Source: Olsenella sp. An188 (GTDB lineage: Bacteria > Actinomycetota > Coriobacteriia > Coriobacteriales > Atopobiaceae). From it: a stretch of DNA of 64,000 bases. The stretch is taken from contig NZ_NFKF01000007.1 of NCBI RefSeq assembly GCF_002160255.1, positions 1 through 64,000 on the forward strand, written 5' to 3'. Made by a program: the position numbers and the translations under genes. The notes under the pieces were generated by a model. The model was not told the origin of the DNA, searched no databases, and saw nothing but the letters and a program-made list of their open reading frames with translations. Shown here piece by piece: positions 1,587 to 57,438 of this stretch; position 1 is the stretch's first letter, and every line of letters starts with the position of its first letter.

Positions 1587-1705
1587 TGGTCAGCGACGTC
1601 CTGCTCTCCCACGGACTGACTCCGCAGTACCATCGGCGCTCGGGGGCTTAACTTCCGGGTTCGGAATGGGACCGGGTGTGCCTCCCCTGCCATGGTCGCT
1701 GACCA
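1587..1705 (-). rRNA. rrf: 5S ribosomal RNA
   Basis: The minus strand reads as a typical bacterial 5S rRNA. The closing helix pairs GGTCAGCG with CGCTGACC, the CCCATTCCGAACCCGGAAGT loop region is present, and the length is about 119 bases. It is the last gene of the 16S-23S-5S operon, about 100 bases after the 23S gene. The outer stem extends several pairs further on both sides (ATGCCCC / GGGGCAT), so the ends are good to a few bases only. Confidence 0.93.
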
Positions 1706-1807
1706 ACAAGGGGCATTCTGCTGAAGGGGGCGCGTCGCCGTGCCCTCAGGGCCGCACAGCGTGACGTCGATCCCCCCGATCGCTCGGGCAAGTGATGCCG
1801 ATGAAGA

Positions 1808-6452
<4,645 letters not shown>

Positions 6453-9693: not shown

Positions 9694-10974
9694 CTACAGG
9701 ACGTCCTCCTCGTCGGGCAGCTCCGCGCGCCTGATGCGGGCGCCGAGCGCGGAGAGCTTCTCGACGAAGCCCTCGTAGCCGCGGTCGATGTGGTGGATGT
9801 CGGACACCGTGGTGATGCCGTCGGCCACGAGGCCCGCCATCACGAGCGCGGCGCCCCCGCGCAGGTCGGGCGACTTGACCTGCGTGCCCGAGAAGCCGTC
9901 GACGCCGTGCACGATGGCGTGGTGCCCCTCGATCACGATGTCGGCGCCCATGCGGGAGAGCTCGCTCGCGAACATGAAGCGGTTCTCGAAGACGTTCTCG
10001 GTGATGACGCAGCTCCCCTTGGCAAGCGCGAGCAGGCACATGGTCTGGGCCTGCATGTCGGTCGGAAAGCCGGGGAACGGCAGGGTCTGGATGTCAGTGG
10101 GTGCGAGCGGGCGGTCACGCCACACGGTGCAGCACCGCTCCCCGCGCTCGACCGAGGCCCCCATCTGCTCGTACTTCTTGAGGACGAGGCCGAGGTGCTT
10201 GGGGTCGAAGCCGCGGACCGTGACCGGGTCGCCGGCGAGCGCGCCGATGGCGAGGAAGGTCCCGGCCTCGATGCGGTCCCCCACCACCTTGTGCGTGACG
10301 GGGTGGAGCTCAGAGACGCCCTCGATCTCGATCACGGGCGAACCGGCGCCGGAGATCTTGGCGCCCATCTCGTTGAGCATGAGGGCGAGGTCGACGATCT
10401 CGGGCTCGCGCGCGGCGTTGTCGATCGTGGTGGTGCCCTTGGCGAAGACCGAGGCCATCATGAGGTTCTCGGTGGCGCCGACGCTCGCGAAGGAGAGCGT
10501 CACCGTGTCGCCGACCAGGCCGTTCGGGGCACTCGCGTGGATGTTGCCGTGGTCGACCCTGAACTCGACCCCGAGGGCCTCGAGGCCGAGGATGTGCATG
10601 TCGATCTTGCGGGCACCGATGTTGCAGCCGCCCGGCATGGCCACGACGGCGCGCCCGAAGCGCGAGAGCAGGGGGCCGAGAACCGCGGTGGAGGCGCGCA
10701 TCTGCGCGACGAGGTGGTAGGGGGTCTCCCATGAGTCGACCGTCGAGGTGTCGATCTTGAGCTCGTGCTCGTTGACGACCTCGATGCGCGCCCCGATGTT
10801 CTTCAGGACCTTGCCCATGACGTGGACGTCAGCGATGTTGGGGACGTTGGTGAGCGTGGTGACCCCGGGCGCCATGATGGTCGCCGCCATGAGCTTGAGC
10901 GCCGAGTTCTTGGCTCCCTCGACGCGCACCTCGCCCGTGACGCGGTGTCCGCCCTCTACCTGAATGACGTCCAT
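9694..10974 (-). CDS. murA: UDP-N-acetylglucosamine 1-carboxyvinyltransferase
   Basis: MurA (426 residues) transfers enolpyruvate from phosphoenolpyruvate to UDP-GlcNAc, the first committed step of peptidoglycan synthesis. The active-site cysteine that fosfomycin modifies is present (Cys117 in PGGCNIGAR), as is the substrate-binding Lys-Asn pair in GAKNSALK (22-23). The length is standard. It sits directly after atpC on the same strand (12 bases), so it probably shares a transcript with the ATP synthase operon; the atp-murA order is common in Gram-positive bacteria. Confidence 0.95.
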   Translation of the reverse strand: MDVIQVEGGHRVTGEVRVEGAKNSALKLMAATIMAPGVTTLTNVPNIADVHVMGKVLKNIGARIEVVNEHELKIDTSTVDSWETPYHLVAQMRASTAVLGPLLSRFGRAVVAMPGGCNIGARKIDMHILGLEALGVEFRVDHGNIHASAPNGLVGDTVTLSFASVGATENLMMASVFAKGTTTIDNAAREPEIVDLALMLNEMGAKISGAGSPVIEIEGVSELHPVTHKVVGDRIEAGTFLAIGALAGDPVTVRGFDPKHLGLVLKKYEQMGASVERGERCCTVWRDRPLAPTDIQTLPFPGFPTDMQAQTMCLLALAKGSCVITENVFENRFMFASELSRMGADIVIEGHHAIVHGVDGFSGTQVKSPDLRGGAALVMAGLVADGITTVSDIHHIDRGYEGFVEKLSALGARIRRAELPDEEDVL

Positions 10975-11429: not shown

Positions 11430-15480
<4,051 letters not shown>

Positions 15481-26081: not shown

Positions 26082-26101
26082 GGCAGGACTCCTCTTCTTC
26101 G

Positions 26102-26150
26102 GCCCTGGTTTCCGACCAGGGCAGGGGTTCGTCTTGGTTCCGACCAAGAC
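26102..26150 (-). promoter_or_regulatory. Tandem hairpin leader of rpmE (candidate L31 leader)
   Basis: The rpmE mRNA leader holds two stem-loops with the same head: GTCTTGGT-CGGA-ACCAAGAC (26131-26150) and GCCCTGGT-CGGAA-ACCAGGGC (26102-26122). Stem sequences differ while the GGTCGGAACC head is kept, as expected if a protein binds it. Leaders regulating L31 genes are known in several bacterial groups; I infer that L31 binds here to repress its own synthesis. A -10 hexamer TATACT with an upstream TG lies at 26165-26170. Confidence 0.7.
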
Positions 26151-45101: not shown

Positions 45102-46541
45102 TTACGCCTCGTCCTCGGCAGCGCGAGAACGGCTGTAGATCATCTTCATGGAGAGGATGAAGATCACTAGGCCGCCAAGGATAACCAGGCCGCCGATGAA
45201 GAAGACGTTGGCGTAGGTGGAGGCGGCGCCGGCAGCGGTGCCGAAGATGCTGCTCTCGGGCATGAAGCCGTTGGCCATCATCTGACCGAACAGAGCAACG
45301 CCGATGGAGCCGGTAAGCGCCTGGATGAGGTCGTTGAAGCCGAGCGCGCGACCAGACTCCTCGGCGGAGACCGTCAGCGTTGCGGTATCAACGATCGGCT
45401 GATAGAAGAACGAGGTGCCGAAGTAGTAGACGCACGGGGCGATGCAGATGGACCAGATGGCACCCGCCTGGACGGTCGCAGCGGTAAGGATGAGGCCGCC
45501 ACCCATGCAGGTAAGGGCGAGAATGACCGACGCCTTGCGACCCATACGCTTGATGATGGGGCCAGCGCCGATGCCGACAATCGCGGCAACGATGCTCGAC
45601 CAGACGAGCAGGTTGGAGACCTGCGAGGAGTCGAGGCCGTAGACGTTCATACCGATGTTGTTGGCGCCGGAGCTGATGGTGTAGCTGAAGAAGTAGCCAA
45701 CGAAGATGACGATCATGGTCATCGCGAAGGCGGGGTTGGTGAGCATCTTCGGGGTGATGAAGGGGTTCTTGGCCTTGTTGATGTAGACGATGAAGGCAAT
45801 GAGGGTCACGAAGATGGCCACGAGCCAGAACGTGCTCATGTCAGTGAAGTACATGGTGATGGAGCACGCAAACAGGCCGATGAGCGTAAAGCCGACCCCG
45901 TCGATGGTGGCGCCCACGGCGTGGTTGTCCGGGAGGTTCTTGGACAGGAACGGCAGCATGGGAATGGCGATGAGGCCGACTCCGAAGATGATGCGCCAGT
46001 CGATGAGCGTCACATAGCCAGCGAGAAACACGCCAAGGGCGGCGGCGATGCGGAACACGGCAACGAACAGGCCGTACCACACGACACGGTTCTTCTTCTC
46101 GATGTACTTGGACACGAGCACGAGGAAGATGGAGCCAGAGACCTGCCAGCCCGCAGACTGAATCACGCGCGCGGCGATGACGATCCAGATGCTGAGGTTG
46201 CCGAGAAGGCCCAGCGCGGAACCGATGATGAACACGACGGTTCCGACGACGATCATCTTCTTGAGAGAGAGGAAGTCACCGAGTGAGCCGTAGATGACGC
46301 AGACAATGCCCAGCACGATGCCGGGGATCGACGTGATGAGCGGCGCAAGGCCAGGCTGGCCGAGCTGGTCGCCGATGTTGACGTAGATCATGTTGAACGC
46401 CTGCTGCATGAAGACGCCCAGCGTGAAGATGACAAGCACCAGCGGCACGGAGACGCGCGCCATCTTGTTGAGCTTCAGCCACTCCTCCGATCCCTCTTCG
46501 GGAACGGGGATGCCGTTCTGCTTCTCCAACTCTTCTGCCAT
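45102..46541 (-). CDS. MFS transporter, drug:H+ antiporter-like
   Basis: A 479-residue major facilitator with about 14 hydrophobic segments, as in the DHA2 group. The loop after helix 2 reads YGSLGDFLSLKKM (the MFS G-D-R/K signature), and AARVIQSAGWQVSG resembles the RVIQG motif of DHA2 proteins. It sits at the end of the ribosidase/kinase gene array but behind its own terminator (46587-46612), so it may have a separate promoter. It could import a sugar or nucleoside or export a toxic product; neither can be told from sequence. The codon use is less GC-biased than nearby genes. The start follows AAGGAG. Confidence 0.88.
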   Translation of the reverse strand: MAEELEKQNGIPVPEEGSEEWLKLNKMARVSVPLVLVIFTLGVFMQQAFNMIYVNIGDQLGQPGLAPLITSIPGIVLGIVCVIYGSLGDFLSLKKMIVVGTVVFIIGSALGLLGNLSIWIVIAARVIQSAGWQVSGSIFLVLVSKYIEKKNRVVWYGLFVAVFRIAAALGVFLAGYVTLIDWRIIFGVGLIAIPMLPFLSKNLPDNHAVGATIDGVGFTLIGLFACSITMYFTDMSTFWLVAIFVTLIAFIVYINKAKNPFITPKMLTNPAFAMTMIVIFVGYFFSYTISSGANNIGMNVYGLDSSQVSNLLVWSSIVAAIVGIGAGPIIKRMGRKASVILALTCMGGGLILTAATVQAGAIWSICIAPCVYYFGTSFFYQPIVDTATLTVSAEESGRALGFNDLIQALTGSIGVALFGQMMANGFMPESSIFGTAAGAASTYANVFFIGGLVILGGLVIFILSMKMIYSRSRAAEDEA

Positions 46542-46586
46542 TGAAAACTCCTTCCGATCTTGTTCGAGACAGACAGAATATGCATG

Positions 46587-46612
46587 GGACCCGCCGCCTC
46601 CCCGGCGGGTCC
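46587..46612 (-). terminator. Terminator after the second PfkB kinase gene
   Basis: GGACCCGCCG (46587-46596) pairs perfectly with CGGCGGGTCC (46603-46612), about 50 bases beyond the kinase stop codon. It ends the main array before the MFS gene. Confidence 0.7.
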
Positions 46613-46659
46613 GGTGCACGCAACGTGTTGCGCGGGACAGCACCCGCGCGGTCGGGGCG

Positions 46660-47604
46660 CTAGGCCATGGCCCTTAGCAGCGAGCCAGAGTCAGCCCGCT
46701 CGGTGCTCCCGAGCAGCTCCTCGACCTCCGACCTGACAGGGATGGACGGAGCGGCACCCTCACGGGAGACCGCGATCGCCGAGGCGGCCGAGGCCACTCG
46801 CAGGGCCCCGGGGGCATCGTGCCCCTTGGCGCGCTCTGCCAGGTAGTAACCAGTGAAGGTGTCCCCCGCCGCCGTGGTATCAACGGCGTTGACCCTAAGG
46901 GCGGACTGCAGGAAGACCTCGCCGGAGCAGCGGCACATCGAGCCCTCGGACCCGATCGTGAGCACCGTATCAGCGCGCGGAAAGCGCTCCCCCATGGCCG
47001 CAAGCAGCCTCTCGGGCGTGCTCCGCGCAACATCGAGCCCCACGATGCGCGCCGCCTCCCCCTCGTTGAGGATGAAGCAGTCAACGAGCTCGAGTGGGCA
47101 CCCGAGCAGCACGTCGTCCACAGGGGACGGGTTGAGCACGACGCGCATTCCGCGGTCCTTGGCGGCGTGGATGGCGTAGGAAAGGCTTCCGGTCTCGTTC
47201 TGGAGGAGCACCCAGTCATCGGGCGAGAAGGACGAGAGGACCTCGTCGACAAAGGCCTCGTCGACCATCCGGTTGGCGCCCCCGTACAGGATGATGCAGT
47301 TGTCACCCTCTGCGTCGCGCTGGATGATGGCGTGGCCTGAGGGGCAGTCTTCGACCTCGCGCACCCACTCAACGTTGACGCCGGAATCCCTCAGCAGGTC
47401 GCGGAGAAATGCCCCCTCGCGCCCGACGAGACCCGCGTGGAAGACCTCGACGCCGGCTCGCCCGAGCGCAATCGACTGGTTCAGGCCCTTGCCTCCCGCA
47501 AAGGCGCTCCGCCCCTTGGATGAGATAGTCTCGCCTTTTTGGACGAAGTGATCCACGTCGTAGACGAAGTCCACGTTGAGCGAGCCGATGTTAACGATTC
47601 TCAT
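46660..47604 (-). CDS. PfkB-family carbohydrate kinase (ribokinase-like)
   Basis: A 314-residue ribokinase-family enzyme. GSLNVDFVYDVDHF at the N-terminus, FAGGKGLNQSIALGRAG (signature 1, 35-51), and DTTAAGDTFTGYY (signature 2 with the catalytic Asp, 242-254) are all close to true ribokinases. It probably phosphorylates ribose or a related pentose at O5. It is one of three ribokinase-type domains in 11 kb (the others are 50516-51472 and the C-terminal half of 55552-57438). It lies 10 bases after the dehydrogenase gene, in the same operon. Confidence 0.9.
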   Translation of the reverse strand: MRIVNIGSLNVDFVYDVDHFVQKGETISSKGRSAFAGGKGLNQSIALGRAGVEVFHAGLVGREGAFLRDLLRDSGVNVEWVREVEDCPSGHAIIQRDAEGDNCIILYGGANRMVDEAFVDEVLSSFSPDDWVLLQNETGSLSYAIHAAKDRGMRVVLNPSPVDDVLLGCPLELVDCFILNEGEAARIVGLDVARSTPERLLAAMGERFPRADTVLTIGSEGSMCRCSGEVFLQSALRVNAVDTTAAGDTFTGYYLAERAKGHDAPGALRVASAASAIAVSREGAAPSIPVRSEVEELLGSTERADSGSLLRAMA

Positions 47605-47614
47605 GAGTTCGCTC

Positions 47615-48808
47615 CTATCGTTCGGCCTCGATGGCCATCTCGAAGATGGCGCGACAGTCCTCGCGGGTCAGGCGCCTGACCGAGCCGATGGCGTGATCCT
47701 CGCCAAAGTACTCGATGGCGTCGAGCATGGCGTCGACGCGCTCCCCGTCCACACCGAGCTCGGCGAGGGAGACTGGCATCCCAAGACTCCTGAAGAAGTC
47801 CTCGGTCGCCTCGATTCCCGAGAGGGCAAGGCCCTCGACGCTCATCTCCTCGTTGCGCAGGCCAAAGACCTCCCGGGCAAAGCGGGCAAAGCGTCGCGGG
47901 TTGGAGCGGTAGACGTAGCGCATCCACGAACCCATGACCGCCGTGATGGTGGCGCCATGGGCGATGTCGTACTGGGCGGAGAGCTCGTTGGAGAGGGCGT
48001 GGGTAGCCCAGTCCTGGTTGCGACCCATTCCGATCGAGTTGTTCTGCGCCACCGTCGCCGCCCACATGATCTCTGAGCGCAGCTCGTAGCTGTCAAGGTT
48101 CTCCATGAGGCGCGGGCCCACGTTCACGATGGTGCGCAGAACGCCCTCGCTCATGGCGTCGAGGATGCCGAAGTCCGCGTCATCGGTGAAGTAGCGCTCG
48201 CACACGTGGCAGAACATGTCGGCAAGGCCGCACGCAGTCGGACGTGCGGGCAGCGTCAGGGAGAGCTCCGGGTTCATGACGGCAATCGCGGGACGAACGA
48301 CCGGATGGCTCACGAGCAGCTTGGCGTGCTCGGCCTCGTTGTTGACTACGGCCACCTGGCTCGACTCGCTCCCGGACGCCGGGCAGGTGAGAACCGCAGC
48401 GACGGGAAGCGTACGCTCGGGCTCGGCTACGCCCGTGAAGAAGTCCCAGACATCTCGCTGCGTGGCGGCGCCAAGGCCGATCGCCTTGGACGAGTCGATC
48501 GCGCTGCCCCCTCCGATGGCGACAACCGCGTCAACGCCCTCGCGACGGCACAGGGAGATGCCCTCCCTCACGAGCTCGAGACGAGGGTTTGGCTGAACCC
48601 CTCCCAGCTCGAGGTGCCTGAGCCCAGCCCCCTCAAGACTTCCGACGACCCTGTCGAGAAGACCGCTCTTCTCGAGGTAGTCGCCCCCATCGTAGTGGAC
48701 GAGGACCGTCGTGGCCCCAAGGCCTCGGAGCGCCTGCCCGACGCGCTCCTCCGCGCCGTGGCCGAAGATGAACTTCGTGGCTATCTGTATCTCAAAGTCA
48801 TTAAGCAT
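47615..48808 (-). CDS. Iron-type alcohol dehydrogenase with altered metal site
   Basis: A 397-residue group III (iron-dependent) alcohol dehydrogenase of the YqhD/BDH branch. The NAD(P) motif GGGSAIDSSKAI is at 99-110. Of the four metal ligands, Asp197, His201 and His284 are present (ADMFCH, DIAHG) but the third, in the usual GHEL segment, is Asn274 (ALSNELS). The codon is AAC, so this is a real substitution. Metal binding or specificity may be altered. Likely substrates are aldehydes derived from sugars. Its start overlaps the HAD gene stop by 8 bases. Confidence 0.88.
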   Translation of the reverse strand: MLNDFEIQIATKFIFGHGAEERVGQALRGLGATTVLVHYDGGDYLEKSGLLDRVVGSLEGAGLRHLELGGVQPNPRLELVREGISLCRREGVDAVVAIGGGSAIDSSKAIGLGAATQRDVWDFFTGVAEPERTLPVAAVLTCPASGSESSQVAVVNNEAEHAKLLVSHPVVRPAIAVMNPELSLTLPARPTACGLADMFCHVCERYFTDDADFGILDAMSEGVLRTIVNVGPRLMENLDSYELRSEIMWAATVAQNNSIGMGRNQDWATHALSNELSAQYDIAHGATITAVMGSWMRYVYRSNPRRFARFAREVFGLRNEEMSVEGLALSGIEATEDFFRSLGMPVSLAELGVDGERVDAMLDAIEYFGEDHAIGSVRRLTREDCRAIFEMAIEAER

Positions 48809-49496
48809 CTCTTGAACTTCCCAACAGTATTTCTCGTAGCTGTTCGACGTTCTCGGCCACCTGGTCGGGCTCCTCGCAGAGGAGCCTGTCCACGTCGCCG
48901 TCCCCGTAGGTCACGGCGACGCTGTGCACGCCCGTCGCACGCGCGCCCACGACGTCACCCCAGGAGTCGCCCACCATGACACACTCGTCAGGCGACGCCG
49001 ACTCGGCATTCATGGCACGGGCAGCCATCTGCGCCTTGCTGAGCTCGACCCCATCGTCCGAATCGGCACAGACCCATCCGTCAAAGAGTCCCCTCCATCC
49101 CTTGAGGTCAAGTATCCGGAGAAGGGCTCCCTGGGGCTTGTTCGTGACGATCCGGCTGCGCACTCCCCGGGTGCGGAGCTCCTCGAGGAGCTCCCGCATC
49201 CCGGGGTAGAGGTCGGTCTCGGGATGCGCGCTTATCGAGCGATAGTGCACGCGCACGTCCTCCTCGAAGGAGGGGAGCGCCGCGGGGTCGGGCGAGGGAC
49301 ACAGGCTCGCGTATATCACGTCCATCGGAAGGGCGAGGTTTTCGTCACGCTCGTCAAAACCCCCGACGAACGATCCTCCCCTGCGGCCCGCCGCATAGCG
49401 CAGCGAACCCCATACATCCCCGCTCGTGTTGGCAAGGGTACCGTCAAAGTCCCACAGCACCACGCGCCAGCGCGCGCCCTCCTGAAGTCCCGTCAT
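48801..49496 (-). CDS. HAD-family phosphatase (phosphoglycolate phosphatase-like)
   Basis: A 231-residue HAD hydrolase. Motif I is LWDFDGTLANT, motif II RIVTNKPQG, motif III the lysine in LSKAQ and motif IV MVGDSWGDVVGA, with a helical cap between motifs I and II as in Gph and nucleotidases. In this operon it could remove phosphate from a sugar phosphate or nucleotide. The ATG at 49496 is preferred because AAGGG lies at proper distance; a GTG 15 bases earlier is possible. Its stop overlaps the dehydrogenase start. Confidence 0.86.
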   Translation of the reverse strand: MTGLQEGARWRVVLWDFDGTLANTSGDVWGSLRYAAGRRGGSFVGGFDERDENLALPMDVIYASLCPSPDPAALPSFEEDVRVHYRSISAHPETDLYPGMRELLEELRTRGVRSRIVTNKPQGALLRILDLKGWRGLFDGWVCADSDDGVELSKAQMAARAMNAESASPDECVMVGDSWGDVVGARATGVHSVAVTYGDGDVDRLLCEEPDQVAENVEQLREILLGSSRDA

Positions 49497-49519
49497 CTCC
49501 CCGCCCTTCACTAGCGGCC

Positions 49520-50503
49520 CTAGTCGTAGTTCTTGAGCGTCGAGTACAGCAGCTCCATGAAGCCGGGGAAGTCGAGCTCGAGGGCGCCCTCGGCGTTAGG
49601 CTCCTCGCCGCGGTAGCTCATCTGAGCGTCGCGCTCGATGTCCACCTTGGGGTCAACGCCGCGCAGGTGACGGTAGTCACACACGGTCATGCCGCGGGTG
49701 AGGGCCCCGTTCAGCTCCACGTCGATGTGCATCGGGGCGGCGACGATGAGCGACGGGTCGATAATCCAGGCGACGGCGCACGCGTCATGCATGCAGGCAA
49801 TGGGGGGCTCGCCTTCCTTGATGTCCTGCTGGATGAAGAAGTCGGTGAGGTCGGCGGCAAAGTTGGCCGCCTTGGTCCCGATCTTGCGGAACTCCTCCAT
49901 GTGCTCGATGCCAATGCAGCACTGTCGCGTCAGGTTGATGCCCGTCATCTTGACGTGCGCCCCGCAGTTGAAGACGCGATAGGCAGCCTCGGGATCGACG
50001 AAGATGTTGAACTCGGCCGCCGGGGTCCAGTTGCCAAACGTGACCGAACCTCCCATGACGCAGATCTCGGAGACGCGCTCGGCGATTCTCGGCTCGCGGT
50101 TGAGGGCGGCCGCGACGTTGGTAAGCGGACCCGTGGCGATGATAGTCACGTCGTCGTTGGCCATCACGGTGTCAACGATGAAGTCAACGGCGTGCTGCTC
50201 GCGAGCCGTGTGAGTCGGCTCGGGAAGCACCGGGCCGTCCAGGCCCGTCTCGCCGTGGAAGTTGGGGGCGGTCACCAGGGGCACCGCCATGGGGCAGCTG
50301 TGGCCGGCGTAGACGCCAATCTCATCTGCCTTGCCCAGAACCTCGAGCGTCTTGATCGCGTTGCGCGTGACGTTCTCGAGCGTGCAGTTGCCGCCGATTG
50401 TGGTGATGCCCAGCACGTCCAGGTGCTGGACAGCAAGCATGATGCCGAACGCGTCGTCGTGGCCGGGATCGCAGTCGAGAATGACCTTCTTCTTGGTGCT
50501 CAT
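49520..50503 (-). CDS. Nucleoside hydrolase (IunH/Rih family)
   Basis: A 327-residue ribonucleoside hydrolase that cleaves the N-glycosidic bond to give free base and ribose. The calcium-binding DCDPGHDDA is at 10-18, IIATGPLTNVAAAL, VMGGS and EFNIFVDPEAA are conserved, and MHDACAVAWIIDPSLI carries the C-terminal catalytic His. Base preference (purine, pyrimidine or a modified base) cannot be read with certainty. In this operon it defines the chemistry: the imported compound probably contains a ribosyl bond. It lies 12 bases after the upstream kinase gene. Confidence 0.94.
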   Translation of the reverse strand: MSTKKKVILDCDPGHDDAFGIMLAVQHLDVLGITTIGGNCTLENVTRNAIKTLEVLGKADEIGVYAGHSCPMAVPLVTAPNFHGETGLDGPVLPEPTHTAREQHAVDFIVDTVMANDDVTIIATGPLTNVAAALNREPRIAERVSEICVMGGSVTFGNWTPAAEFNIFVDPEAAYRVFNCGAHVKMTGINLTRQCCIGIEHMEEFRKIGTKAANFAADLTDFFIQQDIKEGEPPIACMHDACAVAWIIDPSLIVAAPMHIDVELNGALTRGMTVCDYRHLRGVDPKVDIERDAQMSYRGEEPNAEGALELDFPGFMELLYSTLKNYD

Positions 50504-50515
50504 CGTGTTCCTTTC

Positions 50516-51472
50516 CTAGATCTGGTGGTCTTTCATGAACGAGACAAGCTCGTCGGAGCTGGGGGTGTTGCGCGCGCCCTTGCGAGCGACCGAGTAGCCG
50601 GAGACCGCATTTCCGAGCCTCAGCGCATCCCGGAGGTCCCCGCCATCGAGAAGCGCGAAGATGAAGCCCGCGTTGTAGACGTCGCCGGCGCCGATGGTGT
50701 CCTCGACCTCAACGCGATAGGCACCGGCTCGGACAACCTCGCCGTCGCGCATGCCAATCGAGCCGTTGGCACCGTCGCGGGCGACCACCGTGCGACCGCC
50801 CGTGGCAAGCGAGAGGGCGTTCTCCTCCCAGGTCCCGCTACCGAGGTAGGCGAACTCCTCGGGTCCGGAGCCCAGCAGGTAGGTAACGTCGCCCATGATG
50901 GCGTCGAGCGCCTCGGCAAAATCGGGATCTAGGACGCCCTCGTCGACGCGCAGGTTAAGGTCAAACGACGTGGGCACGCCCGCCTCGTGTGCCTCGTGGA
51001 AGATGCGAGTGATGGTGGAACGGGCCGAGGTGTCATAAACCAGGGACATGCCCGAGGAATGCACCCATGAGGCGGAGCGCACGCGGTCAAAGTCCACGCG
51101 CTTCTCGTCAAGGACGGTGAACGACCTCTTTTCGCGCGGCCAGCCCCATAGGTAGCGCTCGCCCCTCTCGTCAACAAACGCGAAGACTCCCACGGTGTTG
51201 AGCTCGGGGTCGACCACGAGCCCGGAGACGTCCACGCCAAGGCTGGCAAGCTCGTCGCGCGCAAAGCGACCGTTGGCGTCGTCGCCGACGGTGCCAACAA
51301 AGGCACAGCCTACGCCCAGGCGCGCAAGCGCTGCCGCCGTGTTGGACGAGGTGCCGCCCCCCAGAACCTCGGGGTTGGGCCAGACGACGCGCGTGCGCTG
51401 CTCGTCAAGGAAGCGCGGGTACTGGACGACGATGTCAACGTTGGCGTCGCCAACGACGATGACCTCACGCAT
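50516..51472 (-). CDS. PfkB-family carbohydrate or nucleoside kinase
   Basis: A 318-residue PfkB kinase. VVGDANVDIVVQYPRF, LGGGTSSNTAAALARLG (37-53) and DTIGAGDVYNAGF (258-270) give the fold and the catalytic Asp. It differs from ribokinase (GGTSSNTA in place of GGKGANQA, DTIGAGD in place of DTTGAGD), so the substrate is probably not ribose itself; nucleoside or modified sugar kinases have such variants. It overlaps the TrpF-like gene upstream by 8 bases and is followed by the nucleoside hydrolase, so the pair may act in series. Confidence 0.9.
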   Translation of the reverse strand: MREVIVVGDANVDIVVQYPRFLDEQRTRVVWPNPEVLGGGTSSNTAAALARLGVGCAFVGTVGDDANGRFARDELASLGVDVSGLVVDPELNTVGVFAFVDERGERYLWGWPREKRSFTVLDEKRVDFDRVRSASWVHSSGMSLVYDTSARSTITRIFHEAHEAGVPTSFDLNLRVDEGVLDPDFAEALDAIMGDVTYLLGSGPEEFAYLGSGTWEENALSLATGGRTVVARDGANGSIGMRDGEVVRAGAYRVEVEDTIGAGDVYNAGFIFALLDGGDLRDALRLGNAVSGYSVARKGARNTPSSDELVSFMKDHQI

Positions 51473-52166
51473 TCTTGGCCGCCTTCACGAAGGCCTCGAC
51501 CTTCTCGGGGTCCTTGCAGCGCAGCGTGTTGGCGCGCTCGTCGGCGTAGTTGGTGCAGGTGAAGGAGTCCACGCCGTAGGGGTGCGTCTCGTGGATGGCG
51601 TCGGCTACGTTCTTCTCGTCAAGACCGCCGGCGATGATGCAGGGAACGTCGGTGGACTCGACAATGACGCGGTCGATGGAGCGGTCGTGCGTGAGGCCCG
51701 TGGCGCCGATGTCCTCGGCGTCGACCGCCTTGGTGTCGATTAGGAAGAAGTCAGAGACCCCCTCGTAGGAGCGGACGTAGTCAAGGACCTTCTGCTCCTC
51801 GATCGGGACGCCAGCGAGCACGGGAAGCGCCTGCATGATCTTGAGGCCCGGGAAGCGGCCCTTGAGCTCGGCCACCTGCTCGGGACTGATGCCGTCGATG
51901 TCGCCGGAGAGGTGCAGTACGTCCGGCAGGGCAGCGCGGAGGTCCTCGGAGATCTCGTCGATGTCAGTGGCGCAGGTAAGCCCGATGCGGACCGCCTCGG
52001 GCTGAACGCCCTCGAAGATCTCCTTGGCCTGCTCGCAGGTAAGCTGGCCCGGGGTGTGCTTGACGTGGCCGTAGGACACGCCGATGTGCTCGGCGCCCAT
52101 TCCCACGACCATGCGGGCGTCCTCGACGGTGCGAATTCCGTAAATCTGAACGATCATGCTGTTCAT
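51465..52166 (-). CDS. TrpF-like TIM-barrel protein lacking the catalytic Cys
   Basis: A 233-residue relative of phosphoribosylanthranilate isomerase. The strands and phosphate loops match (HLSGD, GATGLTHDRS 154-163, CIIAGGLDEKNVADAI 176-191, PYGVDSF, CKDPEKVEAF), and the catalytic Asp is kept (Asp144 in LIDTK). The general-base Cys of the KICG motif is Tyr9 (QIYG). No trp gene is nearby. I infer an aldose-ketose type reaction on another phosphoribosyl or sugar phosphate compound. Its ATG overlaps the TGA of the ATPase gene (ATGA); a second ATG nine bases on is also possible. Confidence 0.8.
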   Translation of the reverse strand: MNSMIVQIYGIRTVEDARMVVGMGAEHIGVSYGHVKHTPGQLTCEQAKEIFEGVQPEAVRIGLTCATDIDEISEDLRAALPDVLHLSGDIDGISPEQVAELKGRFPGLKIMQALPVLAGVPIEEQKVLDYVRSYEGVSDFFLIDTKAVDAEDIGATGLTHDRSIDRVIVESTDVPCIIAGGLDEKNVADAIHETHPYGVDSFTCTNYADERANTLRCKDPEKVEAFVKAAKNA

Positions 52167-52972
52167 CCCCTTCTCTGTTCGTTGATAGAGCTAACGAGCC
52201 CGTCGACGTCAAACGCAACTCGCCTCATGCCTGCCGCCCGGGACACGCGCGCCACGGGAGGCGGGATAACGTAGGACTGCTTGAGGACGTCCACGTGCGT
52301 GAAGACCTCCTCGGTGGGACCCTGGTCGATGACCTTGCCCTGGCAGAGCACCATGGTCCTGGGAAAGTTCCTAGTCACGAACTTGGTGTCGTGCGAAATC
52401 GTGATGCACAGCACCCCCTGGTCGCGCAGGACCTTGATCGCATGCGAGAGCCGACGCTCGCCCTCCATGTCCTGGCCGCAGGTGGGCTCGTCGAGAATCA
52501 CCGCCCCGGGGTTCATCATGACGACGGTTCCCATGGCGCAGAACTTCTTCTCAACCGACGAGAGGTCGGCGGGGTTGACGTCAAGCTTCTTCTCGAGACC
52601 CATCAGCTCTGCGACCCAACCCATGCGCTCGGAAATCTCTCGATCGCTCATTCCGAGCTGACGGGGCCCAAACTCGAGCTCGTTGCGAACGCTCTCGAGG
52701 AAGAGCTGGTTGTCGGGATTCTGGAACACGTACCCCACGCTCGCAGACCACTGGGCGGTCGTACGCTCCCCGATGTCAATGCCGTTCACGACAACACGTC
52801 CTGAGGCGGGGCGCAGGATGCCGTTGAAGTGCTTGACGAGCGTAGTCTTGCCAGCGCCGTTCTGCCCAACAATGGCGAGCGGCTCGTTGCCCTCAATCGC
52901 GAGGCTCACCCCATCGAGGGCGCGCTGGCCAGGCTGATACTCGTGAACTAGGTCAATCGTCTCTATCCTCAT
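52163..52972 (-). CDS. ECF transporter ATPase, degenerate signature
   Basis: A 269-residue ABC ATPase of the energy-coupling-factor type. Walker A GQNGAGKTT is at 36-44, the Q-loop YVFQNPDNQLF at about 81-91, and Walker B VILDEPT at 158-164. The ABC signature, normally LSGGQ/E, reads LSSVE (137-141), and the following RVAIA-like helix is changed too. In the ATPase pair this subunit therefore probably forms one non-hydrolysing site with its partner. It overlaps the genes on both sides by four bases (ATGA), so equal synthesis is likely. Confidence 0.88.
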   Translation of the reverse strand: MRIETIDLVHEYQPGQRALDGVSLAIEGNEPLAIVGQNGAGKTTLVKHFNGILRPASGRVVVNGIDIGERTTAQWSASVGYVFQNPDNQLFLESVRNELEFGPRQLGMSDREISERMGWVAELMGLEKKLDVNPADLSSVEKKFCAMGTVVMMNPGAVILDEPTCGQDMEGERRLSHAIKVLRDQGVLCITISHDTKFVTRNFPRTMVLCQGKVIDQGPTEEVFTHVDVLKQSYVIPPPVARVSRAAGMRRVAFDVDGLVSSINEQRRG

Positions 52973-53823
52973 CGTCCAAGCGCCTCCCTCACGCGATCGA
53001 CGGTGGGCTCCTCGGTCAGCTCCACCTCTCCCGGCGCAAGCCCCGCCCTGTCGAGCGCTCGAGTGATGCGCACGTAGTCCGGCACGTCGACGCCGTGATC
53101 GGTGATGTGCTCGTCACCGAAGACCTCCCGTGGCGTTCCGAGCGCAACCTGGTTGCCCCGCTCGAGGGCGAGAACCGTGTCCGCGCAGCGCGCGACACGC
53201 TCCATGTCGTGGTCAACCATGACGATGGTCATGCCGTCAGAGTTGAGCCGCTTTACGATGTCGAAGATCTCCTCGCTGCCGAGCGGGTCGAGCTGGGTGG
53301 TGCACTCGTCGAGAACAAGAATCCGGGGGTTGAGAATGAGGGTCGATCCGAGCGCGACGCGCTGCACCTGCCCGCCGGAGAGCTCGAGGGGATTTCTGTC
53401 GAGCAGCCCCTCGAGGTGAATGGCGCGCGCCACTTCGATCACGCGGCGCTCCATCTCATCGCGGGGAACGCCACGGTTGCAGAGTCCATAGGCAAGCTCC
53501 TCGGCCACGGTGTCCGTGGTATACGAGAGCTGGTTGAACGGATTCTGGAACACGAAGCCAACCTCGCTCGAGGTCTCGGCGACCGAGCGCTCCGCCACGC
53601 TCTCTCCGAAGACGCGCACGCTCCCGCGCGACTTTCCGCGGAAGTGGTGCGGAATCAGTCCGACAAGGGCGTTGCACAGGGTCGACTTGCCCGAGGCGTT
53701 CGAGCCGACCACGCAAAGGAAGCCGCCCTCCTCGACCTCGAAGCTGAGGTGGCGCACCGCGTAGCCCTTCGCCTCGCGATATCGGAAGGAGAAGTCGCTC
53801 ACGCTGATTGCGGTCTGTGCCAT
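52969..53823 (-). CDS. ECF transporter ATPase, canonical partner
   Basis: A 284-residue ECF-type ABC ATPase. Walker A is GSNASGKST (40-48, normally GxNGxGKST), the Q-loop FVFQNPFNQLS, the signature LSGGQVQRVAL (148-158) intact, Walker B ILVLDECT (168-175) and the switch His in VDHDM. It drives import with the neighbouring ATPase, T and S proteins in the cytoplasmic membrane. About 45 residues after the switch region form a C-terminal extension. It lies 12 bases after the T gene. Confidence 0.9.
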   Translation of the reverse strand: MAQTAISVSDFSFRYREAKGYAVRHLSFEVEEGGFLCVVGSNASGKSTLCNALVGLIPHHFRGKSRGSVRVFGESVAERSVAETSSEVGFVFQNPFNQLSYTTDTVAEELAYGLCNRGVPRDEMERRVIEVARAIHLEGLLDRNPLELSGGQVQRVALGSTLILNPRILVLDECTTQLDPLGSEEIFDIVKRLNSDGMTIVMVDHDMERVARCADTVLALERGNQVALGTPREVFGDEHITDHGVDVPDYVRITRALDRAGLAPGEVELTEEPTVDRVREALGR

Positions 53824-53835
53824 GACCTTCCCTCC

Positions 53836-54639
53836 CTAGAGCGACACAAGGCCGAGCGCGGTGACGACACAGGCCACTACAGACAGGACGACAAGGGTCA
53901 CGGCGGCCATGACGAGAGGCGCGTCCGCACGGGAGCGCCGGACGGCACGATAGGTCGTATGGCGCGCCCCCTTGAGGTGGAAGCCGTGGGTCTCGAGCGT
54001 CATCGAGCGCTCCTGGGCATCAGTGAGCGAGGACATGACCACCGGCCCGAGCAGGGGCAGGGCCGCGCGAAGTCGCGAGACCACGCCACCGCTGAGCTCA
54101 AGCCCACGCGCGGTCTGCGCCTCCTGGATGGTCGCCATGCGGCGACGCATCTGAGGAACCACGTTGAGGCTCGCGAGAACGAGGTAGCCCGCTTCCGGGG
54201 AGAGACCGCGCTCGGTGAGGTCGGCAACGAGCTCGCTCGGGGTGGCCGTGCGGTTCATCAGGAAGAACCCTCCCAGGAACACGAGCACCGTACCCACGGT
54301 CTTGAGGGCGGCAAGCACCCCCTCGAGCCCAAGGCGCGCGAACCCGAAGTCCGCGATGAAGGTCGCGTTGGACGAGCCATAGAATCCCTGGATGAACACG
54401 AGGATCACCGAGGCGGGGACGCCAAAGCCAAACATGACCTTGGCGAAGCTCCCAAGCGCGCCCGCCCCGGCCGCAACCGCAAACAGCACGAGCACGAGCA
54501 CGCCGGCGAGGGCGGGTCCGGGAAACACGAGGGCGGCCACGCCCAGCAGCAGCGCCACGAGCAGCTTTGCACCCGGGTTCAGCGAGCGCAACCAGCGATC
54601 GAGCCGCGGAGCCTCCCTTTCGTCAATTTCGTTACCCAC
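53836..54639 (-). CDS. ECF transporter transmembrane protein T
   Basis: A 267-residue EcfT-type scaffold with about five to six membrane segments. The two coupling motifs that contact the ATPases are visible as AQTARGLE (X-R-G type) and AQERSMTLETHGF. It joins the substrate-binding S protein to the ATPase pair. The start is GTG with a GGGGAGG site. A dedicated T gene in the same operon as S and two ATPases marks a group I (single-substrate) ECF transporter. Confidence 0.9.
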   Translation of the reverse strand: MGNEIDEREAPRLDRWLRSLNPGAKLLVALLLGVAALVFPGPALAGVLVLVLFAVAAGAGALGSFAKVMFGFGVPASVILVFIQGFYGSSNATFIADFGFARLGLEGVLAALKTVGTVLVFLGGFFLMNRTATPSELVADLTERGLSPEAGYLVLASLNVVPQMRRRMATIQEAQTARGLELSGGVVSRLRAALPLLGPVVMSSLTDAQERSMTLETHGFHLKGARHTTYRAVRRSRADAPLVMAAVTLVVLSVVACVVTALGLVSL

Positions 54640-54671
54640 AGCACACCTCCCCGGAGTCGCGACAGCGCGTC

Positions 54672-55316
54672 CTACGCCTCGTCATCGACGTCGTCCACGT
54701 CGTCGTCATCGTCATCGGCGCCGTCGGAGGCATACTGGCTGATGAAGCGCCGCGGAATCTTGCGCCAGATCAGGTAGGCGATAAGAACCGAGATGCCCTT
54801 GTCGATGAGGCTCTCGATGAACGACGACGAGAGCACTGAGACGAGTACGTCCTGCATCGCCACGATGAGCGCGGCCGTGAGGACGGAGGTCCCATTGATA
54901 CCCGTCGCACCTCCGAAGACAAAAGTGGTGATCAGCGAGGCGGAGACGGAGTTGACCAGGGTGACGGCAAGCCAGATCACGACGACACCCCAGATCTTGT
55001 TGAAGAGACCTGCCTTGGCGAGGTAGCCGGCAGTCAGGCCAACGAGAACGCTCACGACGGCATAGGGAAGGTTCACGGGGTTGGCGACGATGGCGAGAAA
55101 CACGTTGGTGATGAGGCCGGTGAGCGCAGCGACCCACGGGCCCGACAGAGTCGCCACGATGAGCGTGCCGATGGTGTCGAGGAACAGCGGCAGCTTGAGC
55201 ATCGAGCAGAGAGTCCCGCCCACCAAGTTGATGCCCACCGCAATGGGGATGAGGACGAGCGACTTTGTCGTGAACTGGGACTTAAGCCCTCCGCCCCCAC
55301 GCTTTTCTCCCGACAT
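54672..55316 (-). CDS. ECF transporter substrate-binding S component, substrate unknown
   Basis: A 214-residue membrane protein with about six hydrophobic helices (residues 17-185) and an acidic Asp-rich tail. The pattern LPLFLDTIGTLIVATLSGPWVAALTGL followed by NPVNLPYAVVSVLVGLTAGYL is typical of S components, and the helix-1 small-residue face fits docking onto EcfT. I cannot match it to a named substrate family. Operon partners (nucleoside hydrolase, PfkB kinases) point to a nucleoside, riboside or base. The start follows AAAGGAG and the promoter region is shared divergently with the regulator. Confidence 0.85.
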   Translation of the reverse strand: MSGEKRGGGGLKSQFTTKSLVLIPIAVGINLVGGTLCSMLKLPLFLDTIGTLIVATLSGPWVAALTGLITNVFLAIVANPVNLPYAVVSVLVGLTAGYLAKAGLFNKIWGVVVIWLAVTLVNSVSASLITTFVFGGATGINGTSVLTAALIVAMQDVLVSVLSSSFIESLIDKGISVLIAYLIWRKIPRRFISQYASDGADDDDDDVDDVDDEA

Positions 55317-55369
55317 TGAAGCTCCTTTCTCCGGTCCTATTCCAAAACCTATTTCTCTTTATTTATTAA

Positions 55370-55383
55370 GGAAAACATTTTCC
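55370..55383. promoter_or_regulatory. Candidate LacI-type operator
   Basis: GGAAAA-CA-TTTTCC is a 14-bp palindrome with a two-base centre, resembling LacI-family sites apart from CA in place of CG at the centre. It lies 54 bases upstream of the S-component start. An AT-rich TTAATAAAT stretch next to it (minus strand) is a possible -10, so a bound repressor would cover the promoter. The regulator gene starts 169 bases to the right. Confidence 0.6.
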
Positions 55384-55385
55384 GA

Positions 55386-55405
55386 ATGCTTTTTCCTAAA
55401 AGCAT
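55386..55405. promoter_or_regulatory. Second palindrome in the divergent promoter region
   Basis: ATGCTTTT and AAAAGCAT flank a four-base centre, forming an exact inverted repeat two bases from the first palindrome. It may be an additional regulator site or an mRNA hairpin. Two GTTTTCCC strings further right (near 55425 and 55463) could be half-sites. Confidence 0.5.
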
Positions 55406-55551
55406 GTTAGAAGATAGCACGAAGTTTTCCCCTTGTCTCGGCAAGCGGCGCAAACAAGCCCCTCAACGGAGTTTTCCCGTTCGGGCGCTGGCAGCCATGG
55501 TTTATCGTGTAGTAGAGTGAGCGGCTTAAACTGACCGTGGGAGGGCACGAC

Positions 55552-57438
55552 GTGGACATAAGCGACATCGCGAAGCTCGCGGGAGTCTCGCCCTCTACCG
55601 TCTCAAAGGTAATCAACCACAAAGACGAGGGAATCAGTGACCAGACGCGCGAGCGCGTCAGAAGAATCGTGCGCGAATACCATTACGTCCCCTACTCGCG
55701 CTCCCGCGCCCCCAAGGAGTGGCTGATAGGAGTCCTCTTCCGCTCGACCATTTCAATCGACTCGACGCTTGACGGCATTCTCGCCACAGCGCAGGCGCAC
55801 GGTTACGCCACCATCGTCTTCAGCAGCGACAACGACTCCGACCAAGAGCGTAAGAACCTCGCCGCGCTCAGGAGCGCGGGGGTGACGGGCATCATCTGGG
55901 AGCCTGTGAGCATGGAGAGCCTCACCCTGCGTGACGAGCTCGTTGCGCAGGGTGTCAAGCTCGTCACCATGGGGCCCTACGGCGGCGACCGGTCGTTTCT
56001 GCTCCCCTACGAGTCCGCGGCCTATGACATCACGACCGAGCTTGTGGGCCGCGGGCACGAGCGAATTGCGTGCCTCGTTCGGGAGGGGCGTCGAACGACG
56101 GACTTCATCAGGGGGTTTCGCAAGGCGCTCTTTGAGAGCGGGATGGCCTTCGACGAGTCCCTCGTGTACCACGAGTCATGCGAAACCCTACTCGACAAGA
56201 TCGGAAGACGTGACATCACGGGCGTTGTCTGCTCGCACTACCACCTGGCCCGTTCGCTCTTCTCGCGCCTCGCCGCCCTTCACTACCACACCCCCGAGGA
56301 CTACTCGCTCGTCTCGCTGCGAAACGACGCGGGCAGTTCCTGGAGCGAGGACACCGACGAGGCCATCTCCACCTACACAATCAGAAACGCGGAGTTCGGG
56401 CGCATCGCCTGCAGGAGCCTCGTTCAAAAGATTGAGAACCGCGAGGAGGCGCTGAGCTTTGCCCAGATGCTCGCGCTCGATAACGAGAGCTCCCTTGGGG
56501 CTCCCCCGTCGAGCGGCTCGAAGCGCGTCATCGTAGTGGGGAGCATCAACATAGACACGCGCCTCGAAGTAGCAAGCCTGCCCGTGAGCGGGGCCACGGT
56601 GAGCGCCCACACGTCCCTGGAGTACTTGGGGGGCAAGGGCGCAAACCAGGCCATCGGAGTCTCGAGACTGGGCAACCCGGTGACGCTCGTTGGCAACGTG
56701 GGCTCCGACCCCTTCTCTGACCTCGTCTACCGCGACCTCGAGCGCTGGAACGTAAACGCGGAGGGCGTCTACCGCAGCACTGGGAAGGAGACGGGAAGGG
56801 CCTTCATCTTCGTGAGCCCAGCGGGCGAATCAATGATCACCATTCTGTCCGGAGCCAACGCGAGCCTCCACGCAGACGACATCGTCTCACGAGAGGCCTT
56901 CTTCGAGGGAGCGAAGTGCTGCCTCGTCCCGTCCGAGGTTCCCATGGACGCCGTCGTTGCCGCCTGTCAGCTGGCAAGGCGACACGGGGCGCTCACCATC
57001 GTCAAGCCATCCGCGTGCGACCGCCTTCCGTCCGAGCTCCTGCCCCTGGTGGACATACTCGTCCCCAACGAGCTGGAGCTCGCAACCATCTGTCCCGAGG
57101 GAGAGGACGTCGAGGGCAGGGCGCGGACTCTCAGGGGGCGCGGCGCCGGCACGGTCATCGTCACGCTCGGGGAGCGTGGTTGCTACCTGTGCTCGGAGGG
57201 CCTGGAGCGCCACCTTTCCGCCCCGTCCATGAACCCCGTCGACACCACTGGCGCCGGAGACGCCTTCATCAGCGCCCTGGCCTCATGCCTGCTTGGAAAC
57301 GACGACCTGGTTACCGCGGCACGAAAGGCAAACTACGCCGCGGCGTACAGCATCACACGCTTCGGGGTGGCCAGCTCGCTCATCGACCGCTACTCACTTG
57401 ACCGTGCCTTCCAGCAGGGTCTCGCGGAACGCGAGTAG
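55552..57438 (+). CDS. LacI-family regulator fused to a ribokinase domain
   Basis: A 628-residue fusion. Residues 1-50 are a LacI helix-turn-helix ([20 protein letters not shown]), 55-310 a periplasmic-binding-like sensor domain (GYATIVFSSDNDSDQERKN, RGHERIACL), and 324-622 a full ribokinase: VVGSINIDTRLEV, GGKGANQAIGVSRLG (360 onward), and DTTGAGDAF at 564-572 with the catalytic Asp. Both halves look intact. I infer that it represses the divergent ECF/ribosidase operon and releases it on binding a sugar or sugar phosphate, while phosphorylating ribose. The start is the GTG behind GGGAGGG. One frame without interruption supports a real fusion. Confidence 0.92.
   Translation: MDISDIAKLAGVSPSTVSKVINHKDEGISDQTRERVRRIVREYHYVPYSRSRAPKEWLIGVLFRSTISIDSTLDGILATAQAHGYATIVFSSDNDSDQERKNLAALRSAGVTGIIWEPVSMESLTLRDELVAQGVKLVTMGPYGGDRSFLLPYESAAYDITTELVGRGHERIACLVREGRRTTDFIRGFRKALFESGMAFDESLVYHESCETLLDKIGRRDITGVVCSHYHLARSLFSRLAALHYHTPEDYSLVSLRNDAGSSWSEDTDEAISTYTIRNAEFGRIACRSLVQKIENREEALSFAQMLALDNESSLGAPPSSGSKRVIVVGSINIDTRLEVASLPVSGATVSAHTSLEYLGGKGANQAIGVSRLGNPVTLVGNVGSDPFSDLVYRDLERWNVNAEGVYRSTGKETGRAFIFVSPAGESMITILSGANASLHADDIVSREAFFEGAKCCLVPSEVPMDAVVAACQLARRHGALTIVKPSACDRLPSELLPLVDILVPNELELATICPEGEDVEGRARTLRGRGAGTVIVTLGERGCYLCSEGLERHLSAPSMNPVDTTGAGDAFISALASCLLGNDDLVTAARKANYAAAYSITRFGVASSLIDRYSLDRAFQQGLAERE

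Follow-up and report, generated by a model that had tools for sequence, protein, structure and literature searches.

A recurrent operon of Olsenella sp. An188 and its relatives as a probable ribonucleoside scavenger with its own ECF importer and a TrpF-like barrel

Vitamins and other micronutrients are the main known cargo of energy-coupling factor (ECF) importers. The locus described here raises the question of what such an importer carries, and what becomes of its cargo, when it is encoded together with a nucleoside hydrolase (NH), several sugar kinases and a protein resembling TrpF, the phosphoribosylanthranilate isomerase (PRAI). This locus is an operon of 11 minus-strand genes at positions 45102-55316 of a 64-kb stretch of DNA from Olsenella sp. 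An188 of the Coriobacteriia (genome completeness 99.94), which was analysed as a whole and is called the window below. From 55316 down to 45102, the genes encode ECF S, T, A1 and A2, the TrpF-like protein, the kinase PfkB1, NH, a HAD phosphatase, an iron-containing alcohol dehydrogenase (Fe-ADH), a ribokinase and an MFS transporter. The operon is most likely a transferable scavenger of ribonucleosides, and most likely of ordinary ones. Since ribokinase-type proteins are already present (at 46660..47604 and in a divergently encoded regulator), the role of PfkB1 and the TrpF-like protein becomes the central question. On balance, we favour a nucleoside system in which these two proteins act on a phosphorylated pentose, whatever the reaction. 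We infer a nucleoside substrate with strong confidence, efflux of the base and repression by the regulator with moderate confidence and the reaction of the TrpF-like protein with weak confidence. The features are listed below; a check of the open reading frames (ORFs) of the window found all of them open at these coordinates.

54672..55316, minus strand: ECF S component, CD3073-like, the substrate-binding membrane protein (PF12822; S-component fold in the model)
53836..54639, minus strand: ECF T component (CbiQ family, 68.7 bits)
52969..53823, minus strand: ECF ATPase A1 (NCBIfam; canonical LSGGQ signature)
52163..52972, minus strand: ECF ATPase A2 (NCBIfam; degenerate signature motif DLSSVEKKFC)
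51465..52166, minus strand: TrpF-like protein of PRAI fold, QIY clade (PF00697; Tyr9 at the position of the catalytic Cys, Asp144 kept)
50516..51472, minus strand: PfkB-family kinase PfkB1 (NCBIfam; paired with the TrpF-like gene in every one of the 18 sister loci)
49520..50503, minus strand: NH, pyrimidine-type (nearest UriH/RihA; all checked active-site residues present)
48801..49511, minus strand: HAD phosphatase (nearest phosphoglycolate-phosphatase models; catalytic residues present)
47615..48808, minus strand: Fe-ADH of butanol dehydrogenase/YqhD type (D197, H201, H270, H284)
46660..47604, minus strand: ribokinase-type PfkB kinase (TIGR02152, 213.9 bits, below the cut-off of 299.65)
45102..46643, minus strand: MFS transporter (nearest drug-efflux models; Tet38-like, 152.8 bits against a cut-off of 925)
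55537..57438, plus strand: divergent LacI-type repressor fused to a ribokinase domain (ribokinase and RbsR-type models, both below cut-off)
55370..55383, no strand: palindromic operator GGAAAA-CAT-TTTCC between the divergent units (its link to the LacI-ribokinase fusion being a presumed one)

A sequence-only reading of the window had proposed a system for taking up and breaking down ribosides, served by a group I ECF importer of its own. Pfam and NCBIfam models uphold the families that it named, including three ribokinase-type domains (PfkB1, the ribokinase and the LacI fusion), and the system is kept as a unit in relatives. Indeed, the gene set is more than a chance assembly, because it recurs in 18 other loci from Actinomycetota and Bacillota (best-segment identity 64-88%), 15 of which keep the 8-base overlap of the TrpF-like and PfkB1 reading frames. 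The hosts of these sister loci are Atopobium, Collinsella, Bifidobacterium, Gardnerella, several Clostridia-type bacteria, Enterococcus and Oceanobacillus. The loci come from a scan of one genome per species with an alignment of four orthologues and two peptide patterns; one pattern holds QIYG and favours copies with Tyr, a selection from which the neighbouring gene sets are free. The TrpF-like gene is present in all 18 by selection, and PfkB1, A1 and A2 also occur in 18 of 18. All four parts of the importer are encoded together in 17 sister loci, S and T each being counted 17 times as L047 (L numbers denote loci) is cut by a contig end inside A1. NH is found in every sister locus, at 65% identity or more in 16 of them, while L044 and L048 have only a second type at 37-38%. 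Fe-ADH occurs in 17 and HAD in 16. Because a simple ORF picker supplied the neighbouring genes, short ones may be missed. L097, being the same genome as L044, was counted once.

The operon exists in two main forms. The LacI-ribokinase fusion and the MFS transporter go together in ten sister loci and in the window, and a GntR regulator is found in six others, five of them with a YddG-like EamA protein. Across the 18 loci the transporters are exchanged, MFS occurring in ten, EamA in seven (including the truncated L047) and at least one of the two in 16. L040 carries both, L049 and L053 carry neither, and neither regulator type was seen in L049. L051 has a second, divergent QIY TrpF copy (14506-15192) between HAD and Fe-ADH of the same operon. 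An apparent MFS-NH fusion in L044 (an ORF of 848 amino acids) was rejected, the two parts being separated by 264 Ns (14362-14625).

The sequence-only reading had also described tight packing with four- and eight-base overlaps. Such overlaps (4, 4, 8 and 8 bases) do exist at four of the ten junctions, and short gaps separate the genes at the other six; from S to MFS, the spacings are +32, +12, -4, -4, -8, +12, +8, -8, +10 and +16 bp. The last one depends on the start of the MFS gene, whose ORF opens at an upstream GTG. Because its first Met is residue 35 and, for several of the ten MFS-bearing loci, alignments open at query residue 30-44, its real start is probably at 46541, so that the gap to the ribokinase gene would be 118 bp.

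The distribution of the operon is patchy. In a class-wide sample, TrpF-like matches were found in 36 of 396 genomes at E 1e-8: four of these genomes, among them the host, carry the gene with at least 71% identity, and the remaining 32 match at 29-38%; 12 of those 32, readable in frame, begin with KICG or KVCG, as in true TrpF. In the tree, the window copy groups with Atopobium UBA1382, Collinsella and two Bifidobacteriaceae (support 99/99), and Atopobium oral taxon 810 falls outside this group, in an unresolved set with Bacillota. This placement and the patchy distribution point to a spread by horizontal transfer. A search of viral contigs gave no relative, and phage records gave six matches at 28-33% identity.

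On what would this operon act? The NH is nearest to pyrimidine-type hydrolases (6ba0, RihA) and reaches 290.6 bits against the UriH equivalog model, whose cut-off is 450. It carries the DxDxxxDD motif and the N, E, N and D residues of the IU_nuc_hydro family. Across 29 aligned NHs, the Asp residues of the motif, N39, H83, N158, E164, N166 and D240 are each kept in 28-29 rows; in one row, Ns cover the first motif. H239 is kept in the window and the 18 sister loci and varies in distant NHs. We take the Asp motif and the N, E, N and D residues to be calcium and ribose ligands. As they are conserved, the family most likely cuts ordinary ribosides. They also speak against a modified sugar, an argument that does not extend to the base. 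The modified nucleoside suggested by the sequence-only reading thus loses ground, since no observation hints at a modification of base or sugar and the presumed ordinary-ribose residues are retained. A second NH gene lies outside the operon in the host genome (C13:5175-6071).

The importer leads to the same class of substrate by a separate route. The sole Pfam match of its S component is the general ECF_trnsprt family (PF12822), and its sole NCBIfam match is the CD3073 family NF045596, below cut-off (105.3 against 180 bits) and itself named "putative". Membership of the S component in a vitamin family of known substrate would have counted against the sequence-only reading; no such family was reached in the Pfam and NCBIfam scans. 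A literature search on the term CD3073 returned no paper. The model of the S component (pLDDT 69) is best matched by 4huq_S (VIA-align, Z 15.5, 2.9 Å over 159 residues), and the top 19 rows are all ECF S components (Z 11.2-15.5). A profile of 18 S proteins, run at E 1e-12 against 291 genomes of the class of genome G399, found relatives in 29 of them. Among 13 distant S loci taken from the best-ranked relatives (two ranks skipped), an NH gene adjoins the S/ECF genes in six (L123, L124, L125, L127, L133 and L134), a count that stands without a background rate of NH adjacency. For instance, L123 has its NH 1.2 kb from the ECF genes, with a purine nucleoside phosphorylase/UDP phosphorylase gene on the far side of NH, and L125 encodes a PfkB kinase and an MFS protein besides NH. 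No ORF in the 13 loci had a TrpF-like protein as its best BLAST match. This S family is therefore linked to nucleosides independently of the window operon, and it probably carries them. The two ATPases appear to be a consistently asymmetric pair in which A2 has lost LSGGQ: its signature reads DL(S/T/R)xx(E/Q)K(K/R)FC in the window and all 18 sister loci, and A1 keeps LSGGQ in the window and 16 of 18, the remaining two not being extracted by the pattern. LSGGQ in both ATPases is typical of group I ECF transporters without defining them.

What, then, is the TrpF-like protein? Its PRAI (beta-alpha)8 fold is supported by PF00697 (45.4 bits, above the cut-off of 22.7) and by an AlphaFold model (pLDDT 91) that superposes on 4aaj with Z 27.2 and 1.7 Å over 197 residues; among the rows shown, only TrpF structures stand well above other barrels. 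It shares with TrpF this fold, the GGL phosphate loop, Asp200 and the invariant strand-6 Asp144, presumably the counterpart of the general acid Asp126. It differs from TrpF in its very different partner genes and in its strand-1 Cys, which we take to be the general base (Cys7 of Thermotoga maritima TrpF). This residue is replaced by Tyr9 in the window and is Tyr in all 19 core copies and in the second L051 copy; the QIYG pattern contributes to this count, and the close matches found without it are Tyr in four of four cases. At the position of TrpF Arg36, to which we ascribe a ligand-binding role, most of the core family has R, H or G. The best NCBIfam TrpF model gives 102.9 bits against a cut-off of 216. 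No other PRAI-family protein and no indole-3-glycerol-phosphate synthase (IGPS) were found in the host genome, the latter search being positive in 14 of 14 control genomes. Judged by these residues and absences, the protein is not TrpF. The "TrpF-like isomerase" of the sequence-only reading hence keeps its fold, and its isomerase activity becomes an assumption, the catalytic Cys being replaced in every aligned copy. The annotation of QIY proteins as phosphoribosylanthranilate isomerase in the records examined is probably a mis-annotation that hides another reaction.

The QIY clade comprises 31 rows on one side of a branch (support 100/99) that separates them from canonical TrpF and from a QVAG group, in a tree whose bootstrap is not quite settled and in which L087 and L089 have long branches. 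Left out of it were L008, L011, L018, L074, L075, L092 and L094 (canonical), L099 (KVCG start) and L100-L102 ("KICAN"), and L085 stands outside the tree as its annotated start lacks the QIY stretch. Seven of the 12 distant QIY rows lie directly beside a PfkB gene (L070, L071, L072, L073, L076, L089 and L098). L073 has a PfkB-TrpF-Fe-ADH trio. In L071, QIY TrpF-PfkB is accompanied by two NHs, a MatE protein and a Bmp-type binding protein with an ABC ATPase. On a plasmid of the haloarchaeon Halostella pelagica (L089), TrpF, PfkB and NH follow each other in the same order as in the window, near a Bmp-type importer from which an opposed ADP-ribosylglycohydrolase gene (11669-13075) separates the NH. 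The other flank carries genes for a sugar-type binding protein, Gfo/Idh, an enolase-superfamily protein and an aldehyde dehydrogenase, and oxidative sugar metabolism thus appears to be encoded close to the triad as well. A Limosilactobacillus mucosae plasmid was used solely for the split Fe-ADH genes that neighbour its TrpF-like fragment; this fragment matches residues 63-233 only, and no QIY start was found upstream of it.

Several other neighbourhoods of TrpF-like genes were observed. In L071, a LUD-domain protein (10159-10815) follows TrpF-PfkB in the Bmp/NH operon. On rhizobial plasmids (L084, L085, L086 and L088), the gene lies by an RpiR regulator, and genes for a sugar ABC importer, PfkB and an "aminotransferase" point the other way; the last of these is methionine gamma-lyase-like by score in L084, and these loci may represent an undescribed sugar pathway, possibly for a thio-sugar. 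On the Mesorhizobium plasmid MesoLjLa4 (L087), QIY TrpF is found among beta-RFAP-synthase-like, purH, SAICAR-synthase, BtpA/SgcQ, Rieske and amidohydrolase genes, with no annotated PfkB nearby; to us, this setting resembles a C-nucleoside biosynthesis cluster. The third TrpF-like group, QVAG (Cys to Ala), lies beside a upp-like gene in L090 (8992-9672), L093 (5992-6681) and L096 (5869-6549). Its hosts are Corynebacterium, Streptomyces and Agrobacterium, the first two with pseudouridine-5'-phosphate glycosidase-like and EamA genes. In L090 and L096, a tautomerase gene joins those for EamA and pseudouridine-5'-phosphate glycosidase, an arrangement resembling indigoidine/minimycin clusters. Forming a separate group in the tree, QVAG was not counted with QIY.

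A working scheme can be drawn for the whole operon. The ECF complex (S, T, A1 and A2) would import a nucleoside, which NH would split into base and free ribose. The base would be exported by MFS, by EamA in the sister clusters and perhaps by MATE in a distant one, and the ribokinases would phosphorylate the ribose; import, hydrolysis, efflux and this phosphorylation are suggested by the protein families. PfkB1 would then make a pentose phosphate or bisphosphate, which the TrpF-like barrel could cleave by a retro-aldol reaction to yield triose phosphate together with glycolaldehyde or glycolaldehyde phosphate as the C2 aldehyde. A phosphate would be removed by HAD, and Fe-ADH would dispose of electrons by reducing the aldehyde to an alcohol. 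Alignments show the motif residues of NH, HAD, Fe-ADH and the kinases to be intact, D197, H201, H270 and H284 of Fe-ADH being presumably metal ligands. PfkB1 is nearest to IolC (best model), 2-keto-3-deoxygluconate kinase and similar kinases, each of which feeds a TIM-barrel aldolase. The order given by the sequence-only reading (isomerisation, dephosphorylation, reduction) is one of several possible ones.

That the PfkB1/TrpF-like pair would in this way perform a "pentose glycolysis", with the barrel as aldolase, is our leading but tentative proposal for the pair, held with less than even confidence. A wider version is doubtful: the QIY proteins would be a new class of pentose-phosphate aldolase, or an equivalent C-C cleaving enzyme, which with PfkB would turn nucleoside ribose into triose phosphate and a C2 aldehyde independently of transketolase, would be common to Actinomycetota, Bacillota and at least one haloarchaeon, and in bacteria would be fed by a previously unassigned, nucleoside-specific ECF family. 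Several observations weigh against the working scheme or parts of it. In the QIY alignments, the barrel core lacks a conserved Lys and a metal site is not evident, which leaves a class I or class II aldolase mechanism without a visible catalytic residue. The best fold matches of the model are TrpFs and say nothing of a new reaction. Transketolase is found in all 12 cluster-bearing genomes tested, so that ribose could enter metabolism without this module. HAD is missing from two of the 18 sister loci and Fe-ADH from one, and neither is among the genes typed beside the Halostella triad. Five of the 12 distant QIY rows are not directly beside PfkB, and the rhizobial L084, L086 and L088 have PfkB in the divergent operon together with a sugar importer, with no annotated NH; the QIY substrate may hence vary from host to host. 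The stretches read around L070, L072, L073, L076 and L098 yielded no NH, and seven of the 13 distant S loci show none. Finally, MFS could instead be an importer.

Isomerisation or epimerisation would also be chemically easier than an aldol cleavage, which makes it a close rival within the same nucleoside system. The TrpF-like protein would act as an aldose-ketose isomerase or epimerase of a pentose phosphate via Tyr9 and Asp144, and PfkB1 would then make ribulose bisphosphate. The fold, Asp144, Asp200 and the phosphate loop match TrpF, and acid-base isomerisation needs neither Lys nor metal. However, ribose-phosphate isomerases are known to be general, Fe-ADH would be left without a role and the bisphosphate would need an aldolase: a FucA-type (class II) enzyme was not found at E 1e-10 in the host genome or in genome G401, although it is present in ten of 12 cluster genomes. 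We regard this isomerase as possible, if somewhat unlikely. Less plausible still, and close to the idea of the sequence-only reading, is an operon that degrades a modified or glycated riboside, with the TrpF-like protein catalysing a step of Amadori or reverse Amadori type on an N-riboside 5'-phosphate. TrpF itself acts on such a compound, the partner kinase in L073 is nearest to pseudouridine kinase (208.7 bits) and PfkB1 has a fructoselysine-kinase match (77.3 bits), but all these kinase matches are below cut-off, NH would already have removed the base, its presumed ribose ligands are conserved and the position of TrpF Arg36 is not fixed. The broader proposition of a nucleoside system acting on a phosphorylated pentose shares ground with both of these alternatives, and the likelihoods expressed here are not meant to sum to one.

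Two further explanations lie outside that proposition. Salvage of the queuosine type is very unlikely. According to PMC11130926, QrtT belongs to PF12822, as does the S component of the window, and QueK is a nucleoside hydrolase that frees queuine. A tRNA-guanine transglycosylase (TGT) is encoded in 12 of 12 cluster genomes but also in 14 of 14 control genomes, and does not discriminate; neither TGT nor any queuine-specific gene occurs in the sample of neighbours typed, and the ribokinases, Fe-ADH and the TrpF-like gene would be unexplained. Sugar-kinase, TrpF-like, Fe-ADH and exporter genes set the window apart from QrtT/QueK. Lastly, being the sole PRAI-family protein found in the host, the TrpF-like protein might be its real TrpF for tryptophan synthesis, merely sitting in a nucleoside operon. 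Given the missing IGPS, the Cys replaced in 19 of 19 copies and the low score against TrpF models, this can scarcely be credited.

How would the operon be controlled? The LacI-ribokinase fusion, which matches a ribokinase model at residues 331-616 (260.3 bits) and an RbsR-type model at 6-307 (84.1 bits), would repress it via the operator at 55370-55383. This operator is found within one mismatch in ten of 11 intergenic regions of the LacI-type clusters (L052 has two mismatches) and in none of the seven other clusters. At one mismatch, a genome scan gave ten strand-hits at seven places, against six for a reversed-pattern control. Two palindromic matches outside the operon (L138 and L141) have nearby ORFs without evident nucleoside link, as judged by eye. 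A wider regulon was rejected; the regulator looks local in its action.

Is the operon a variant of a known system? The nearest known operon is the uridine-utilisation operon uriR-rbsK1-uriT-uriH of Corynebacterium glutamicum, with which it shares a LacI-type regulator, a ribokinase, an MFS protein and a uridine-type NH. It differs in the fusion of regulator and ribokinase and in the addition of the ECF importer, the TrpF-like protein, PfkB1, HAD and Fe-ADH; besides the shortfall against UriH, the UriR model gives 49.7 bits against a cut-off of 550. The non-carboxylating pentose bisphosphate pathway of haloarchaea, as described in PMC9700705, employs a phosphorylase, ribose 1,5-bisphosphate isomerase and a FucA-type aldolase. 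Its overall course resembles the one proposed here for the window: a kinase and a HAD phosphatase act on the ribose of nucleosides, a C-C bond is cleaved, and with an aldehyde reductase the end products are triose phosphate and ethylene glycol (PMC9700705). The window instead encodes a hydrolase and the TrpF-like barrel and, as no FucA-type aldolase was found in its genome, the known haloarchaeal ribulose 1-phosphate route cannot simply be assumed. The haloarchaeal equivalog cut-offs are not reached by the ATP-dependent ribose 1-phosphate kinase (130.8 against 330 bits), ribulose bisphosphate phosphatase (35.2 against 330) and glycolaldehyde reductase (26 against 550) models. The window thus fails tested features of both systems. 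Searches by title and abstract, whose coverage excludes most subscription papers, returned no description of the operon or of a nucleoside ECF importer. Elsewhere, the window holds 5S, 23S and 16S rRNA genes within 1588-6451 and an L31-Coriobacteria ribosomal-protein leader at 26089-26122.

According to PMC9700705, 19 halophilic archaea give no clue to nucleoside degradation, a FucA* homologue being a possible lead for part of them; Halostella does not figure in its main text. The archaeal QIY copy beside NH and a Bmp-type importer bears on this question and, if the aldolase reading of QIY proteins were true, it would provide one answer. In bacteria, the ECF family tied to NH would be a new substrate class for ECF importers and would provide an assignment for CD3073-like S components. 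Moreover, the host genera of the operon are known from the human gut, mouth and vagina. Hence, this operon may affect which bacteria feed on nucleosides in these habitats.

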